In this document: positions 991 to 25,235 of the stretch, one piece after another
Position numbering within the stretch: the stretch's first letter is position 1
Layout: every line of letters starts with the position of its first letter
DNA from: Chloroflexota bacterium
GTDB lineage: Bacteria; Chloroflexota; Anaerolineae; Aggregatilineales; J027
Reading direction: 5' to 3'
Length of the DNA stretch: 64,000 nucleotides
Assembly: GCA_013112715.1 (NCBI GenBank)
Contig: JABFGB010000004.1
Span: 186,001 to 250,000 of the forward strand
Program-made: the position numbers and the translations under genes
Notes under the pieces: model-generated
Databases searched by the model: none
Told to the model about the DNA's origin: nothing
Seen by the model: the letters and a program-made list of their open reading frames with translations, nothing else

Positions 991-1590
991 TTAAGAACGT
1001 GGGGTGATCCCACGCAGGTAAAGTTGAATGACATGTTCAGCCATCTGAGCCGTTTCTTCTTCTGTCCAATTGGCCCGTTCTGGCATATGATGTTCGCTGA
1101 CGGACCCCTGTAACACAAACATAGCGCTGACCGCGAGCGGAGTTGGCAAAGTTGCTACGATTTCCCCGTTTTGTTTCGCGGTTTCGACGAGGGCATAGAG
1201 ACGGTTGCGGAGACGTTCTTGGTGTTCATTAAAAAGCGGACTGGCCTTGAGAATGGGAAAGATCAAGCCGAAATTCGCCATTCCCCCTTTGGCAATATGC
1301 CGCCGTTGCAGCATCATGCGCATGATGGTCTCAATACGTTCTAGGGCTGTACCTTGCAGCGGAGCATCAAATAGTGCCTCGATTTCTTCATGTCCTTGCA
1401 GCACTACTTTCACCAAGAGTTCATCTTTGCTGGCGAAATGTTGATATAGGGTTGGTTTCGAGACACCCACTGCCTCGGCCAGTTCATCCATATTGAAATT
1501 GACAAAACCGCGTTCGTACATTAGGTCACTGGCGACTTTTAAAATCTCGATCTCGCGCTGCCGTTTGGCCCGTTCTTTATAAGACACCAC
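991..1590 (-). CDS. TetR/AcrR family transcriptional regulator
   Basis: A 199-residue protein with a canonical TetR N-terminal helix-turn-helix at about residues 30-50 (MDELAEAVGVSKPTLYQHF) and a helical ligand-binding C-terminal half ending near residue 195. The start is GTG at 1590; a second GTG follows directly at 1587. It heads a minus-strand unit with the half-exporter at 1-960 and is divergent from the exporter at 1788. A promoter and an overlapping 35-bp imperfect palindrome lie just upstream. This is the usual layout of a repressor that controls itself and adjacent efflux genes. The inducer cannot be inferred. Confidence 0.93.
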   Translation of the reverse strand: MVSYKERAKRQREIEILKVASDLMYERGFVNFNMDELAEAVGVSKPTLYQHFASKDELLVKVVLQGHEEIEALFDAPLQGTALERIETIMRMMLQRRHIAKGGMANFGLIFPILKASPLFNEHQERLRNRLYALVETAKQNGEIVATLPTPLAVSAMFVLQGSVSEHHMPERANWTEEETAQMAEHVIQLYLRGITPRS

Positions 1591-1609
1591 ACTGCCTCTG
1601 GAAATAATT

Positions 1610-1644
1610 TTTACTGGAGAGTAGAATTTCTACTACTCAGTAAA
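1610..1644. promoter_or_regulatory. Probable TetR operator, 35-bp imperfect palindrome
   Basis: Two 17-bp arms (1610-1626 and 1628-1644) flank a single central base at 1627 and match at 14 of 17 positions. The inner six bases, GTAGAA/TTCTAC, are perfect. The site begins 20 bp upstream of the TetR start and touches the -10 box of the predicted tetR promoter, so a bound repressor would block transcription. Binding by this TetR is inferred from position. Confidence 0.65.
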
Positions 1645-1673
1645 TTTTATTGTCGAATAAGTTTAGTTGTCAA
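1644..1673 (-). promoter_or_regulatory. Predicted promoter of the tetR/half-exporter unit
   Basis: On the minus strand, TTGACA (1673-1668) is followed after 18 bp by TAAAAT (1649-1644), close to the sigma-70-type consensus. The predicted start site falls inside the palindrome at 1610-1644. Confidence 0.55.
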
Positions 1674-1728
1674 GAGGGGCATTCTGTCACTTTTCACGAA
1701 GCGGTCACTCGAAACCAATCCATTTCTA

Positions 1729-1741
1729 ACACGTATCGTGT
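1729..1741. promoter_or_regulatory. Short perfect inverted repeat upstream of the plus-strand exporter
   Basis: ACACG-TAT-CGTGT lies 47 bp before the ATG at 1788. It differs in sequence from the 35-bp palindrome, so it may be a second regulator's site or chance. Position is the only support. Confidence 0.3.
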
Positions 1742-1787
1742 AATGTTAAACATCGAAGATTCTGTACTTTGAGGACATCCAAATTTT

Positions 1788-3614
1788 ATGACCTCCACAC
1801 CTGAAACTCAGGCCAAATCATCCGAAAAATTCTCGGAAGTCGTGCGCTCGGTCAGTTGGCGCAGGCTACTAAGTTATCTCCGACCACACGGGGGGCGCAT
1901 GGTGATTGTGCTTATCACCCTTGCCATCACTAGTGTCATCAACGTTGGCTTTCCATTGGTGATTGTGCGCCTGCTAACTTCAGTTTTGAACGATGCCAGC
2001 TATAGCAAATTGAATACCCTTGCGGGAGCATTGACAGCCTTATTTTTCATTTCGGCAGCACTCAATTTTGTGCAGACGTATATGCTGTCGTATATCGGGG
2101 AAAAAATTGTCTTTGATATGCGAACCCAGTTGTATCGCCATTTGCAAAAGCTCTCGTTGGAGTTTTATGCCAATCGGCGGGTAGGCGAAATTGTGTCGCG
2201 CATATCCAACGACGTGACCAAAGTGCAAAATGTGCTGACCAACAGCGTTACCAGCCTTATCAATAACCTGATTACGCTGGTCGGCTCGATTGTGGTGGTG
2301 TTTGCGCTCAACCCCTCGCTGACGGGCTTTGTTTTGGGGTTGATTGTGGCCTTGCTGTTTATTGCGATTGTGTTTGGTCGGCCCTTTGAGCGCATGAGCA
2401 CCAAAGTGCAAGATGAATTAGCCGCCGCAACGACGGTTGCTGAAGAAGGCCTGCAAAACGTCCGCATTATCAAAAGTTTTGCCCGCGAAAATTATGAGGT
2501 AAACCGCTACGAAACCGCCATGCAGCGCACCTTCCGTCAATCAATGCGCTTGGTTTTGCTGCGTGGTCTGTTTGGTTCAACAATGGCCTTCTTGGGTTTT
2601 AGCTCCATCGCGGCGATTTTATGGTTCGGGGGACGCGAAGTCATTGCAGGCCGTTTGACCCTGCCGGAAATCAGCGGGTTTTTGATCTACGGGATCAGCA
2701 TCGCGGCAAGTTTGGGCAGTTTGGCAGGACTCTATACCGAATTTCGCAGCGCGATTGGAGCGGTCACACGGGTATTTGAAATTCTGGATACCACACCAAC
2801 CATCACCGATGCCCCCGATGCCCAAGACATGCCGCATATTGAAGGGCGCATTACCTTTGCCAACACCTCGTTCAGCTACGATGATCGTATGGCGGTGTTG
2901 AAAAACATCAGCCTCGACATCGCCCCCGGTGAAATTGTCGCGCTGGTTGGGCAGACAGGTGCGGGTAAGAGTACGGTTTTTAATCTCATTCCGCGCTTTT
3001 ATGACCCCACCGAAAATTCAGTGAAGATAGACGGTATTGATTTACGCAGCGTCAAACAGGAAAGCCTACGTCAGCAAATCGGCATGGTTCCACAAGAGAC
3101 TATCCTCTTTGGTGGGACAATCTATGACAACATCGCCTATGGTCGGTTGGATGCGACGGAAGCGGAGATTATTGAGGCCGCCAAAGCCGCCAATGCCCAT
3201 GATTTTATTACGGCTTTCCCGGATGGCTATCAAACGATTGTTGGGGAGCGTGGTGTGAAATTGAGTGGGGGGCAGCGCCAGCGTATTGCAATTGCGCGTG
3301 CCATCATCAAAGACCCACGTATTTTGCTGTTGGATGAAGCCACCAGTTCACTCGATAACGAATCTGAGGCATTGGTGCAAGAGGCGTTGGAACGGATGAT
3401 GCAGGGACGTACCACCGTCATGATTGCTCACCGCCTGAGTACGGTCAAGGTTGCCCATCGTATTATCGTTCTGGATCAGGGCGAGATCGTGGAAATGGGC
3501 ACACACGATGAATTGATGGCGCAAAACGGCCTATACGCCAAGTTATATACTATGCAGTTCCGCGATGGCGAAGCGCGTTTGGTGGCGGAATACCTCGGCA
3601 AAGTACCCGCCTAG
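1788..3614 (+). CDS. ABC transporter ATP-binding protein/permease (half-exporter)
   Basis: A full-length 608-residue half-exporter. Residues about 25-330 form a six-helix type IV exporter membrane domain and about 350-600 the ATPase. Visible motifs are Walker A GQTGAGKST (about 387), the ABC signature LSGGQ (about 491), Walker B ILLLDEATSS (about 511) and the H-loop in MIAHRLSTVK. All catalytic elements are present, including the Glu after Walker B. It is divergent from tetR and the other half-exporter, sharing a 197-bp control region. It probably exports lipids, peptides or drugs; MsbA/LmrA-like proteins cannot be told apart from sequence alone. Confidence 0.95.
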   Translation: MTSTPETQAKSSEKFSEVVRSVSWRRLLSYLRPHGGRMVIVLITLAITSVINVGFPLVIVRLLTSVLNDASYSKLNTLAGALTALFFISAALNFVQTYMLSYIGEKIVFDMRTQLYRHLQKLSLEFYANRRVGEIVSRISNDVTKVQNVLTNSVTSLINNLITLVGSIVVVFALNPSLTGFVLGLIVALLFIAIVFGRPFERMSTKVQDELAAATTVAEEGLQNVRIIKSFARENYEVNRYETAMQRTFRQSMRLVLLRGLFGSTMAFLGFSSIAAILWFGGREVIAGRLTLPEISGFLIYGISIAASLGSLAGLYTEFRSAIGAVTRVFEILDTTPTITDAPDAQDMPHIEGRITFANTSFSYDDRMAVLKNISLDIAPGEIVALVGQTGAGKSTVFNLIPRFYDPTENSVKIDGIDLRSVKQESLRQQIGMVPQETILFGGTIYDNIAYGRLDATEAEIIEAAKAANAHDFITAFPDGYQTIVGERGVKLSGGQRQRIAIARAIIKDPRILLLDEATSSLDNESEALVQEALERMMQGRTTVMIAHRLSTVKVAHRIIVLDQGEIVEMGTHDELMAQNGLYAKLYTMQFRDGEARLVAEYLGKVPA

Positions 3615-22295: not shown

Positions 22296-25235
22296 CTATA
22301 CGGTAATTACCAACTGATACCCTGTCATCTCTTCAAACACCTGCTGGATTTGGGCCACATCGTTTTCATCCGGTTCACCCGCCACCGCGAAGGCCACTTC
22401 ACCGCGATCTACATGAATGCTAGGCCCTTTACGAACGGTCAAATTGGCTTGACGTACCAACTGTTGGGCGACCTGTAAAATGGCGTTTTGGTTGGGGTGG
22501 GGATGAATTGTCAGTTCATAGCCCGTTTGCTCGGCTAACTGCTGAATGGTGTCCAGATGCCGACTGCCGACTTGGGGCGAAATGAACGATAACACAATCG
22601 TCCCTTGTTTGAGGCTGGTTTTATAGAGGCCGTAGGGTTCAAGGGCCTCTTTAAGCACCCTATAGGCCGCATTGATTTCCATTTGGGTATTGCTGGCGGG
22701 CGACTTGCTGGTGCCGACGTTGGCAGCGGGGGCATTATTATCCCCTTTGACATTGAGCAGCAAGCGGAAACCCGTCAGGTCTTCATAGTTCTGTATCAAG
22801 ATCGCTGGGTCGCTTAGTCCGCTGATTTCCGCGCCGACCTCGCCTTTATCAATGAAAAACGATGGGCCTTTGACAATCTGGGCGCCGAAGGGCAGCAGTT
22901 CAATCAGGGCCGCGCCGAGGGCTTGTTGATTGACATCGGGCGAAATGATTACTTCCCATTTTGTCAATTCCGCCAGCATCTCAACTTGTTCACTATAGAG
23001 TTCGGTGGCGCGATTGGGGAAATCGAAATAGAGCGTCAACTGCTTGCGTAGGGTATCCATCCCTGCTTTTCGCAGACGAGCCTCTGGTGGAAATGCGGCT
23101 ACAGCCGTTTTGCGGGCGATGTTCATTTCCATCGGTTCTTCGGCCTGCGCTTGCAAGGGCAGCAGCTTGCCTTCGACGTTATTGGCCCCGTCTTTCGCCA
23201 GCGATAACACTACTGCCAGCAGTGCCGTCATGGGGTGGACATCCTCTGGTAAATTAGCAGGCACAAGTGTCGTCGGGTCAATCGGTTGAGCGGCCCGCAC
23301 CAGCGTTTGGCGTTTATCGAACGGGAGCAGCTTATCACGGATGGTCTCGGCTTGTTGCAGCATGGCATTCAGCGTCGCAATCCGCCCCTTACCTTCCATC
23401 TTGGGTGCGTCGTCCATTTTGCCGATCACCCATAGCAGGGCATCACCGAGGTAATTGCGTCCCTTCGCTTTGAGAGCCGTTGCCTTAAAAGAATCAATCG
23501 CGGCTTCTTCCACAATGCCCACACGCGGCTTGCCATTGACATCACGCAGTACCACAATTTTGCCCACAATATCAGGATAGGCCGCCATAATAGCACGTTG
23601 ACGTTGGGTACGTTTGACCTGCTCTTCACTGCGGACTTTATAGGTGTGCGTCCGCCGCCAATCCGCCGCAAAATAGACCCCATCGGTTTCTAGGACGGCG
23701 TTGGCTTCACTGGCGCGGTTTTCATCCCCCCACCATGCGATGGCGAGTTCACGGGAACTAAAATAACTTCCCGCCGATTCCTTGAGCGATTCCCATAATA
23801 GCGCGGGGTTGAGTGGACGGGCTTCCCCACCTTTTTTCAGTGCGCCCAATGCCCAAGGCCGTGCCGCGAATTTCATTTCGATGCTGCGACCTGAGACAGG
23901 CATATGGACATGCTTACCCCGTTCGCGTAAATGGGCCGCGAGGGTGCTGCGTGCGCCGGGGTCGCCGTGTACCAATGCGACATGTTCTGCTCCCAATGAA
24001 TCGGCAATCGTCAATAGCTCGGAATCATCCGCATGGGCCGATAGCGAATAGGTGCCGATTTCACAGCGGAGCGACACCGAAGCATCATCAATGCGCAGTG
24101 TGACTTCCTGACCCTCTTGGCGCTCTTTGACCATGCGCTGGACAAAGCGTCCCGGGGATTCTTCATCCTGATACCCGGTCAGGAAAATAGCGTTGCGTTC
24201 ATCATCCGCCAACCAGCGCACAAACGCCGCCGATGGGCCACCCGTGAGCATCCCACTGCTTGCCACGACAATTGCAGGCCCTTCGGAACGGGCGATTTCT
24301 TCACGCTGGACGGGGCTTTGTACGGCTTTGACATTTTTGCGGAAAAATAAATCTTCCTCACCCGCCAATTTAACGGTTTTTTCCGGCAGCAGGTCTCGAA
24401 ATTGATTATAGCTACGGCAGACGGAACGTACCATACCATCGGCCCACACGGGCGCGTCAATTTCATCCCGAAAGTTCAACAAGATTTGCAGCACTTCTTG
24501 GGCGCGACCCAATGCAAACGCCGGGATGATCGCTTTGCCGCCGCGCTCAACCACGCCCTTGAGGGTTTCAATGAGGCGTTTTTCCTCCGCCGAACGATTG
24601 GCATGAAGTTTGCCACCATAGGTGCTTTCTAAGACCAAAAAGTCGCTTTTGACACGCGGCAGATTGGCTTTGACGACTGCTCGTTGGGAAGTCATCGAAA
24701 GGTCGCCAGACATGGTGAGGATACCCTCGTCGCTTTCAATCACCAGTGTCGCCGCGCCGAGAATATGCCCCGCCGGATGGTAGGTCACTTGCAGACCATC
24801 GCCTAGGCGCACGGGCTGGCGAAATTCCACCAGTTGAAAGGCATCCAACAGGCGCTGCACGGCGATTTCATCAAACAGGGGGAGTTCGCCTTCTTCCTCA
24901 TGCCGATTTTTCATTATCATCTGCGCGTCGGCTTGCAGCACCCGTACCAAAGCGAGGGTCGGGGCGGTGGCGATGACGGGGACATGCGGATACTGCTCCA
25001 AAATCAGGGGCAGTGCGCCGGTATGGTCGGTGTGGGCATGGGTGACGAGCAGATAATCTGGCCCGCCTGCCTCACTGACTTGGCGCAAATCCGGCAGTTG
25101 ATCGCTTTCGATGCCGCGTGTTGACCTACTGGAAATACGAATCCCAGCGTCTACCAATAAACGTTTGCCAGAGATTTCGATTAATGTACTGCTGGCGCCG
25201 ACTTCATCCGCGCCGCCCAAAAAGGTTAACTTCAT
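22296..25235 (-). CDS. Beta-CASP metallo-beta-lactamase-fold RNA nuclease with long C-terminal extension
   Basis: 979 residues. Residues 1-450 are a CPSF73/Ysh1-type beta-CASP nuclease: TFLGGADEVGAS, zinc motif THAHTDHTG, then HILGA, TMSGD, the beta-CASP insert with ALGRAQE, GMLTGGPS, and YSLSAHADDS. This group processes RNA ends and decays RNA. The 530-residue extension is unusual. Its last 220 residues contain two copies of a module (about 725-829 and 875-979) sharing VKGPSFFIDKGEVGAEISG / RKGPSIHVDRGEVAFAVAG and a (D/E)xTG(F/Y) ending. The repeated module could bind RNA in KH-like fashion, but this is inference. ATG at 25235. Confidence 0.9.
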   Translation of the reverse strand: MKLTFLGGADEVGASSTLIEISGKRLLVDAGIRISSRSTRGIESDQLPDLRQVSEAGGPDYLLVTHAHTDHTGALPLILEQYPHVPVIATAPTLALVRVLQADAQMIMKNRHEEEGELPLFDEIAVQRLLDAFQLVEFRQPVRLGDGLQVTYHPAGHILGAATLVIESDEGILTMSGDLSMTSQRAVVKANLPRVKSDFLVLESTYGGKLHANRSAEEKRLIETLKGVVERGGKAIIPAFALGRAQEVLQILLNFRDEIDAPVWADGMVRSVCRSYNQFRDLLPEKTVKLAGEEDLFFRKNVKAVQSPVQREEIARSEGPAIVVASSGMLTGGPSAAFVRWLADDERNAIFLTGYQDEESPGRFVQRMVKERQEGQEVTLRIDDASVSLRCEIGTYSLSAHADDSELLTIADSLGAEHVALVHGDPGARSTLAAHLRERGKHVHMPVSGRSIEMKFAARPWALGALKKGGEARPLNPALLWESLKESAGSYFSSRELAIAWWGDENRASEANAVLETDGVYFAADWRRTHTYKVRSEEQVKRTQRQRAIMAAYPDIVGKIVVLRDVNGKPRVGIVEEAAIDSFKATALKAKGRNYLGDALLWVIGKMDDAPKMEGKGRIATLNAMLQQAETIRDKLLPFDKRQTLVRAAQPIDPTTLVPANLPEDVHPMTALLAVVLSLAKDGANNVEGKLLPLQAQAEEPMEMNIARKTAVAAFPPEARLRKAGMDTLRKQLTLYFDFPNRATELYSEQVEMLAELTKWEVIISPDVNQQALGAALIELLPFGAQIVKGPSFFIDKGEVGAEISGLSDPAILIQNYEDLTGFRLLLNVKGDNNAPAANVGTSKSPASNTQMEINAAYRVLKEALEPYGLYKTSLKQGTIVLSFISPQVGSRHLDTIQQLAEQTGYELTIHPHPNQNAILQVAQQLVRQANLTVRKGPSIHVDRGEVAFAVAGEPDENDVAQIQQVFEEMTGYQLVITV

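Follow-up and report, generated by a model that had tools for sequence, protein, structure and literature searches.

What kind of domain fills a 530-residue C-terminal extension of a bacterial β-CASP nuclease, and what would it do there? This question is raised by a gene on contig JABFGB010000004.1 of a Chloroflexota bacterium (GenBank assembly GCA_013112715.1; 5.55 Mb in 76 contigs). It lies in a stretch of 64,000 nucleotides (positions 186,001 to 250,000 of the contig), referred to here as the window. The minus strand from 22296 to 25235 of the window is one uninterrupted 979-codon open reading frame (ORF), and stops interrupt the plus strand over the same interval. Four relatives, with 97, 97, 92, and 97% identity, are Anaerolineae or Chloroflexi MAGs. 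The first-pass annotation saw in this gene a β-CASP RNA nuclease with a duplicated C-terminal module, possibly a two-fold RNA-binding domain, and its estimate of 530 residues for the extension is exact (residues 450 to 979). The features of the gene, in window coordinates, are as follows.

22296..25235, minus strand: whole gene, β-CASP nuclease with a predicted C-terminal KH-like array, 979 aa (ORF)
23886..25235, minus strand: MBL/β-CASP/RMMBL catalytic core, residues 1-450 (Pfam, conservation, alignment to PH1404)
23634..23807, minus strand: predicted winged helix, weakly RNase II-like, residues 477-534 (model; Pfam below cutoff)
23418..23561, minus strand: run of five predicted strands that may form a small barrel, residues 559-606 (model)
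22752..23141, minus strand: module 1, two predicted KH-like units, residues 699-828 (family profile)
22944..23126, minus strand: predicted KH-like unit 1, residues 704-764 (models; hhalign of family half 1 to aCPSF1 KHb)
22749..22928, minus strand: predicted KH-like unit 2, residues 770-829 (models; half-half match)
22302..22700, minus strand: module 2, two predicted KH-like units, residues 846-978 (family profile)
22506..22676, minus strand: predicted KH-like unit 3, residues 854-910 (models)
22302..22490, minus strand: predicted KH-like unit 4, residues 916-978 (models)

The assignment to the β-CASP RNA nucleases is borne out by the core. The Beta-Casp, RMMBL, and Lactamase_B domains all score above the Pfam cutoff in residues 1 to 450, and alignment to PH1404 reveals MBL motifs 1 to 4 as well as β-CASP motifs A, B, and C, with His as motif C (motifs as defined in the sections of PMC3095777 used here). 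Residues D29, H66, H68, D70, H71, H157, D178, E203, H401, and H423 are either invariant or conserved to 90% or more among 26 aligned members. In the PDB, the sequences closest to the core are aCPSF1, Cas14, CPSF73, and INTS11, followed by TTHA0252, with RNase J far behind. The protein scores 261.5 bits with NCBIfam TIGR03675, below the cutoff of 580.2 bits for aCPSF1/FttA (arCOG00543), and its core starts at residue 1 or 2, so that there is no N-terminal KHa-KHb pair and the protein does not have the aCPSF1/FttA layout. In a quick, unrooted core tree of 61 rows, computed without bootstrap, the Chloroflexota family forms one side of a branch with SH-aLRT support of 99. A further branch of the same tree (SH-aLRT 98), which includes only two aCPSF1 rows, parts Cas14 and the TTHA0252-like proteins from aCPSF1 and the family. 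CPSF73 and INTS11 were left out of this tree, rows that were more than 85% identical or had a short core match were dropped, and L157 and L158 were assigned to the family by core similarity, with their modules unchecked. Judging from sequence, the gene product is most likely a bacterial zinc-dependent β-CASP ribonuclease of the CPSF73/aCPSF1 kind, which would cleave RNA.

Between the core and the array lies a basic region (residues 451 to 695; pI 9.3). In it, the winged helix matches wH_RNase_II in the window protein (E = 0.0076) and in three relatives (E = 0.0024 to 0.013), i.e., in 4 of the 10 proteins scanned, always below the cutoff, and the five-strand region is followed by predicted helices (residues 616 to 681). 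This basic region with its weak winged helix may add an RNA contact.

The internal duplication of the two C-terminal segments holds well. Residues 725 to 836 and 869 to 979 align with a Smith-Waterman score of 119 and 31% identity over 107 columns (approximately 728-829 and 873-979), whereas none of 2,000 shuffles reached this score (mean, 26.1; standard deviation, 4.6; maximum, 51; z of about 20). When the same protein was scanned with 110-residue windows, the best 25 pairs all overlapped these two segments. The predicted secondary structures of the segments correspond to each other; unrelated folds were not found. The motif and the ends by which the first-pass annotation recognized the repeat are there, as GPSFFIDKGEV and GPSIHVDRGEV and as DLTGF and EMTGY, respectively, although the spacing from the motif to the following (S/A)G is 4 residues, not 5. 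Its segments of approximately 105 residues proved too short: the repeated unit comprises about 131 residues, with an extra helix and strand in front. The module profile built with relatives has 133 positions, places the window copies at residues 699 to 828 and 846 to 978, and detects only these two copies in the genome (E up to 1).

Each module can itself be divided. The two halves of the module profile match each other with a probability of 93.7% and a score of 34.8 (maximum of 200 shuffles, 19.0). Searching the profile of the entire module against itself gave no off-diagonal match, so the case for duplication within the module is carried by the split comparison. In addition, three of the four-module proteins (L106, L108, and L110) end with one extra half (profile positions 2-66, 3-72, and 3-66), as one would expect with the half as the unit; L105 and L113, likewise with four modules, have no terminal extra half. 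In the module tree, which has 133 columns for 121 rows and leaves many forks open, copies group by position within lineages (24 changes versus 73.5 in shuffles), which indicates that the duplications are old rather than products of recent slippage. On the sequence evidence, each module is an older internal duplication of two α-β-β-α-β halves, so that the tail would hold four. The duplication behind the term "two-fold" is real, but the count was too low: there are four predicted KH-like units here and up to nine in relatives.

The KH assignment comes from sequence profiles and from predicted structures. Sequences of the aCPSF1 KH domains were obtained through a PDB search and compared with the module halves by profile-profile alignment (hhalign). 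Half 1 matched aCPSF1 KHb with a probability of 94.7% and a score of 38.5 over 66 ungapped columns; by the same method, the known relatives KHa and KHb matched each other at 87.1% and 32.2. When the columns of the aCPSF1 KH pair were shuffled 200 times, the score did not exceed 15.9, with a best probability of 2.6%, and the reversed pair scored 6.2. Half 2 alone did not match aCPSF1 (probability of 1% or less), and its link to KH runs through half 1 (93.7%) and is not direct.

The AlphaFold model of residues 690 to 979 (36 sequences; pLDDT, 87.6) has a low pTM of 0.48; this value accompanies a linker, modeled with low confidence, that joins the two modules (model residues 142 to 159). It shows the order helix-strand-strand-helix-helix-strand followed by helix-strand-strand-helix-strand, twice over, with units 1 and 3 carrying the longer form and units 2 and 4 lacking one short helix; the full-length model (26 sequences; pLDDT, 84.4; pTM, 0.52) agrees. 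The reference order of type II KH elements, which is predicted for units 1 and 3, was taken from sections of PMC3095777. In a Foldseek search of 350,542 PDB chains with the tail model, the top seven rows of 889 matches were FttA/aCPSF1 chains (9bct, 2ycb, 3af5, and 2xr1; E = 1.2e-6 to 6.2e-5). The top three rows of VIA-align place module 1 (model residues 13 to 148) on FttA/aCPSF1 residues 4 to 146, which span both KH domains, with Z scores of 8.1, 8.0, and 7.8 and rmsd values of 10.6, 8.8, and 8.8 Å. Z scores near 8 are only modest, and the high rmsd over the KH pair is consistent with a changed angle between its domains. Single units align, for instance, with archaeal NusA2 (1.8 Å over 57 residues; Z of 6.9) and a 40S ribosomal protein chain (about 2.5 Å over 62 residues; Z up to 7.7). 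The type III secretion ring proteins PrgH and YscD are also among the Foldseek and VIA-align matches; the absence of other folds from the VIA table was not taken as evidence.

Searched against PDB sequences, the module profile yielded nothing below E = 0.17, and the best row was an enzyme not known as KH. Pfam gave no significant KH name in 36 members, CinA_KH being the best (E = 0.066; 2 of 36). The best Pfam match of any kind in the modules was GSPE_N1E (E = 3.8e-5 at best), and this name (2 of 36 members), together with Phosphonate-bd (5 of 36), DUF3105 (3 of 36), and DUF1525 (3 of 36), was set aside as weak, none covering most members. The double-stranded RNA-binding domain has the order α-β-β-β-α, which the predicted elements do not fit. 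Between the two folds that had been proposed for comparison, profile and fold matches speak for KH, and the element order speaks against dsRBD. By profile and model, the tail would consist of four type II-like KH units, with homology direct for half 1 and by way of half 1 for half 2.

Among 249 genomes of the class, 12 matched the tail alone as the query; among 251 of the phylum, 15 did (E ≤ 1e-3, own genome included). With the module profile, the class of G358 had members in 13 of its 47 genomes, the class of G303 in 24 of 150, and the class of G465 in 2 of 29. The module is spread over several classes of the phylum, and the nuclease genes carry 2 to 4.5 copies: two in most, three in L052, L056, L063, L064, L107, and L111, and four in L055, L059, L105, L106, L108, L110, and L113. 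Among 68 module-bearing ORFs, 57 contain all or part of the β-CASP core and 4 contain a PHAX domain instead; the remaining 7 are five contig-end fragments, an additional frame of one PHAX gene, and a single short match. By set, the first 30 ORFs include 29 with the core or part of it and a contig-start fragment (L061). The second 31 include 28 with the core or part of it, two PHAX fusions (L126 and L130), and a short match in a frame otherwise noncoding in appearance (L116). The last 7 are two PHAX fusions (L184 and L185), the second frame of L185, and four ORFs at contig ends (L182, L183, L186, and L187). In L107, L125, and L132, the core and the tail are in two overlapping frames and were left so; these genes and L185 may reflect a programmed shift, decay, or an assembly error. 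No neighboring gene family was common to more than 5 of 30 loci.

The four PHAX fusions link the module to a different set of proteins. One module is combined with PHAX_RNA-bd (Pfam ID PF10258) in L126 (G568; E = 5.5e-19) and L130 (G606; E = 4.9e-20), and two modules are combined with it in L184 (G595; E = 8.2e-16) and L185 (G601; E = 2.8e-18; gene over two frames). These bacterial PHAX proteins share the module with the nuclease family but have no detectable nuclease core. Elsewhere, the partner of PHAX_RNA-bd is an RRM, as in a fusion from the same genome as the window (L134; G000:C17, ORF 1189-2046, plus strand; E = 1.1e-19), or a cold shock domain (L147, 1009-2145, minus strand; L148, 1105-2226, plus strand). 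By eye, the C-terminal region of the latter two resembles that of other PHAX proteins, with no Pfam hit. In 251 genomes (the same ones by handle), modules were found in 15, PHAX in 13, and both in 7, giving Fisher p values of 8e-7, or 7e-6 when the own genome is omitted, in a test that ignores kinship, with 4 of the 7 belonging to one family (f68). Of 29 nuclease loci, whose flanks are of unequal length, 3 (L056, L074, and L076) have a PHAX gene at a distance of 2.2 to 7 kb. In the first of these (G453:C653), the nuclease gene has three modules and is followed about 2.2 kb downstream by the PHAX gene; that genome has four PHAX loci. The literature searches turned up no function for bacterial PHAX-domain proteins. 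Of the independent hints that the module handles RNA, its fusion to the RNA-binding PHAX domain is the best.

We favor, with a probability of roughly 0.6, the reading of this protein as a zinc-dependent β-CASP RNase whose four type II-like KH units would capture single-stranded RNA for cleavage by the core. Each tandem KH-like pair would be the equivalent of KHa and KHb in archaeal aCPSF1/FttA; the array would hold several short single-stranded stretches and feed the strand to the MBL/β-CASP active site, presumably helped by the basic winged-helix region between the two. Such an enzyme could have a role in mRNA 3'-end formation or turnover.

Other α-β-β-α-β domains serve as assembly surfaces, and it is possible, if not probable, that these units no longer bind RNA and mediate dimerization or docking to RNA polymerase, the ribosome, or another RNase. 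The matches to the ring proteins PrgH and YscD point this way, as does the lack of conservation of GXXG, which, counted by alignment columns, is found in the strand-helix loop of half 1 in none of 132 modules, in the corresponding region of half 2 in 3, and anywhere in the module in 21. The only GXXG of the window modules, GEVG, is at the start of a strand. These modules are acidic (pI 4.6 and 5.2; the median of the 132 is 5.8, and four archaeal KH stretches range from 5.2 to 8.8), which speaks against loose, charge-driven binding. The first loop of Chloroflexota modules has a common FPxxAxxRY motif (P in 98%, A in 83%, R in 70%, and Y in 64% of 132), retained in part in the window copies (FPNRATELY in module 1 and SPQVGSRH in module 2). 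The archaeal proteins bear on both sides. In the sections consulted, Silva 2011 judged that KHa of aCPSF1, a domain without GXXG, does not bind RNA (PMC3095777). However, in the 2024 cryo-EM complex of FttA, as described in parts of PMC11616081, both KH domains, KH1 included, touch bases of the RNA, probably preferring U, and the core does the cutting; part of another paper reports that the KH domains of Methanococcus maripaludis aCPSF1 are needed for U-tract binding (PMC8716108). Since KHa lacks GXXG, yet KH1 of FttA contacts RNA, the missing motif does not exclude binding. Also against a mere assembly surface, the module is fused to PHAX in four genomes, in the place that an RRM or a cold shock domain takes elsewhere, and PHAX is commoner than chance in module-bearing genomes, kinship being ignored.

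The likeness to KH might instead be convergent, an unrelated α-β-β-α-β unit having been amplified in Chloroflexota. The failure of half 2 to match KH profiles, the middling VIA Z scores, and the alignment of other α/β domains would all fit, but we consider this unlikely: the ungapped 66-column match of half 1 with KHb exceeds that between KHa and KHb, shuffles fall far below it, and FttA/aCPSF1 chains occupy the top seven Foldseek rows in the library of PDB chains searched. Because the PDB sequences closest to the core include Cas14 of type VII CRISPR, a defense-type RNase with a tail recognizing foreign RNA was also considered and appears highly improbable. Cas14 groups with the TTHA0252-like paralogs and not with the family (in the quick tree, on a long Cas14 branch), and tblastn with the tail had no match in either 72,556 plasmid records or 50,697 phage records.

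An extension of the favored RNA-capturing reading starts from FttA, the archaeal transcription terminator. A bacterial counterpart would use its C-terminal KH array to grip nascent RNA while the nuclease ends transcription or forms mRNA 3' ends, perhaps with PHAX-domain partners; we regard this as speculative and rather doubtful. To our knowledge, FttA-like factor-dependent termination by an RNA-cutting nuclease has not been described in bacteria. The Chloroflexota enzyme and the archaeal proteins (MTH1203, PH1404, and Thermococcus kodakarensis FttA) share an MBL/β-CASP core and tandem type II KH pairs, predicted in the former. However, the archaeal pair is single and N-terminal, according to sections of PMC3095777 and PMC11616081, whereas the Chloroflexota pairs are C-terminal, number two to four and a half, do not conserve GXXG, and are separated from the core by an inserted winged-helix region. 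In the part of the paper used here, Silva 2011 described the tandem of KH domains as unique to MTH1203 and orthologous proteins (PMC3095777). A search of the literature by title and the beginning of the abstract, with subscription papers mostly outside it, returned no KH-bearing bacterial β-CASP nuclease.

These comparisons suggest that Chloroflexota built their own multi-grip version of an FttA-like enzyme, in which KH pairs apparently related to the archaeal ones are on a bacterial nuclease, at the opposite end, and multiplied two to four and a half times. The range of copy numbers offers a natural series in which the number of putative RNA grips could be compared with substrate choice in CPSF73-type nucleases. 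The module itself, a domain unnamed by Pfam in most members, is now linked to bacterial PHAX-domain proteins.

RNase J belongs to the same MBL/β-CASP superfamily as the window protein, but its PDB chains score far lower, and their alignments are confined to roughly the first 97 to 238 residues. The TTHA0252-like RNases have the same kind of core but end after about 470 aa without a tail and fall on a separate side of the core tree. The genome studied here encodes such a tail-less paralog, 29% identical, outside the window and approximately 32 kb from the nuclease gene (L002; G000:C4:174848-176185), and four other genomes of the genus carry the nuclease gene and a TTHA0252-like paralog on one contig at similar spacing. 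In some members of the class, a ParB_N-like domain follows the KH-like array (L069:10612-12081, E = 3.6e-6, over the cutoff; L071:10319-11767, E = 5.3e-5, under it), with 5 of 26 members matching at an E value of 0.01.
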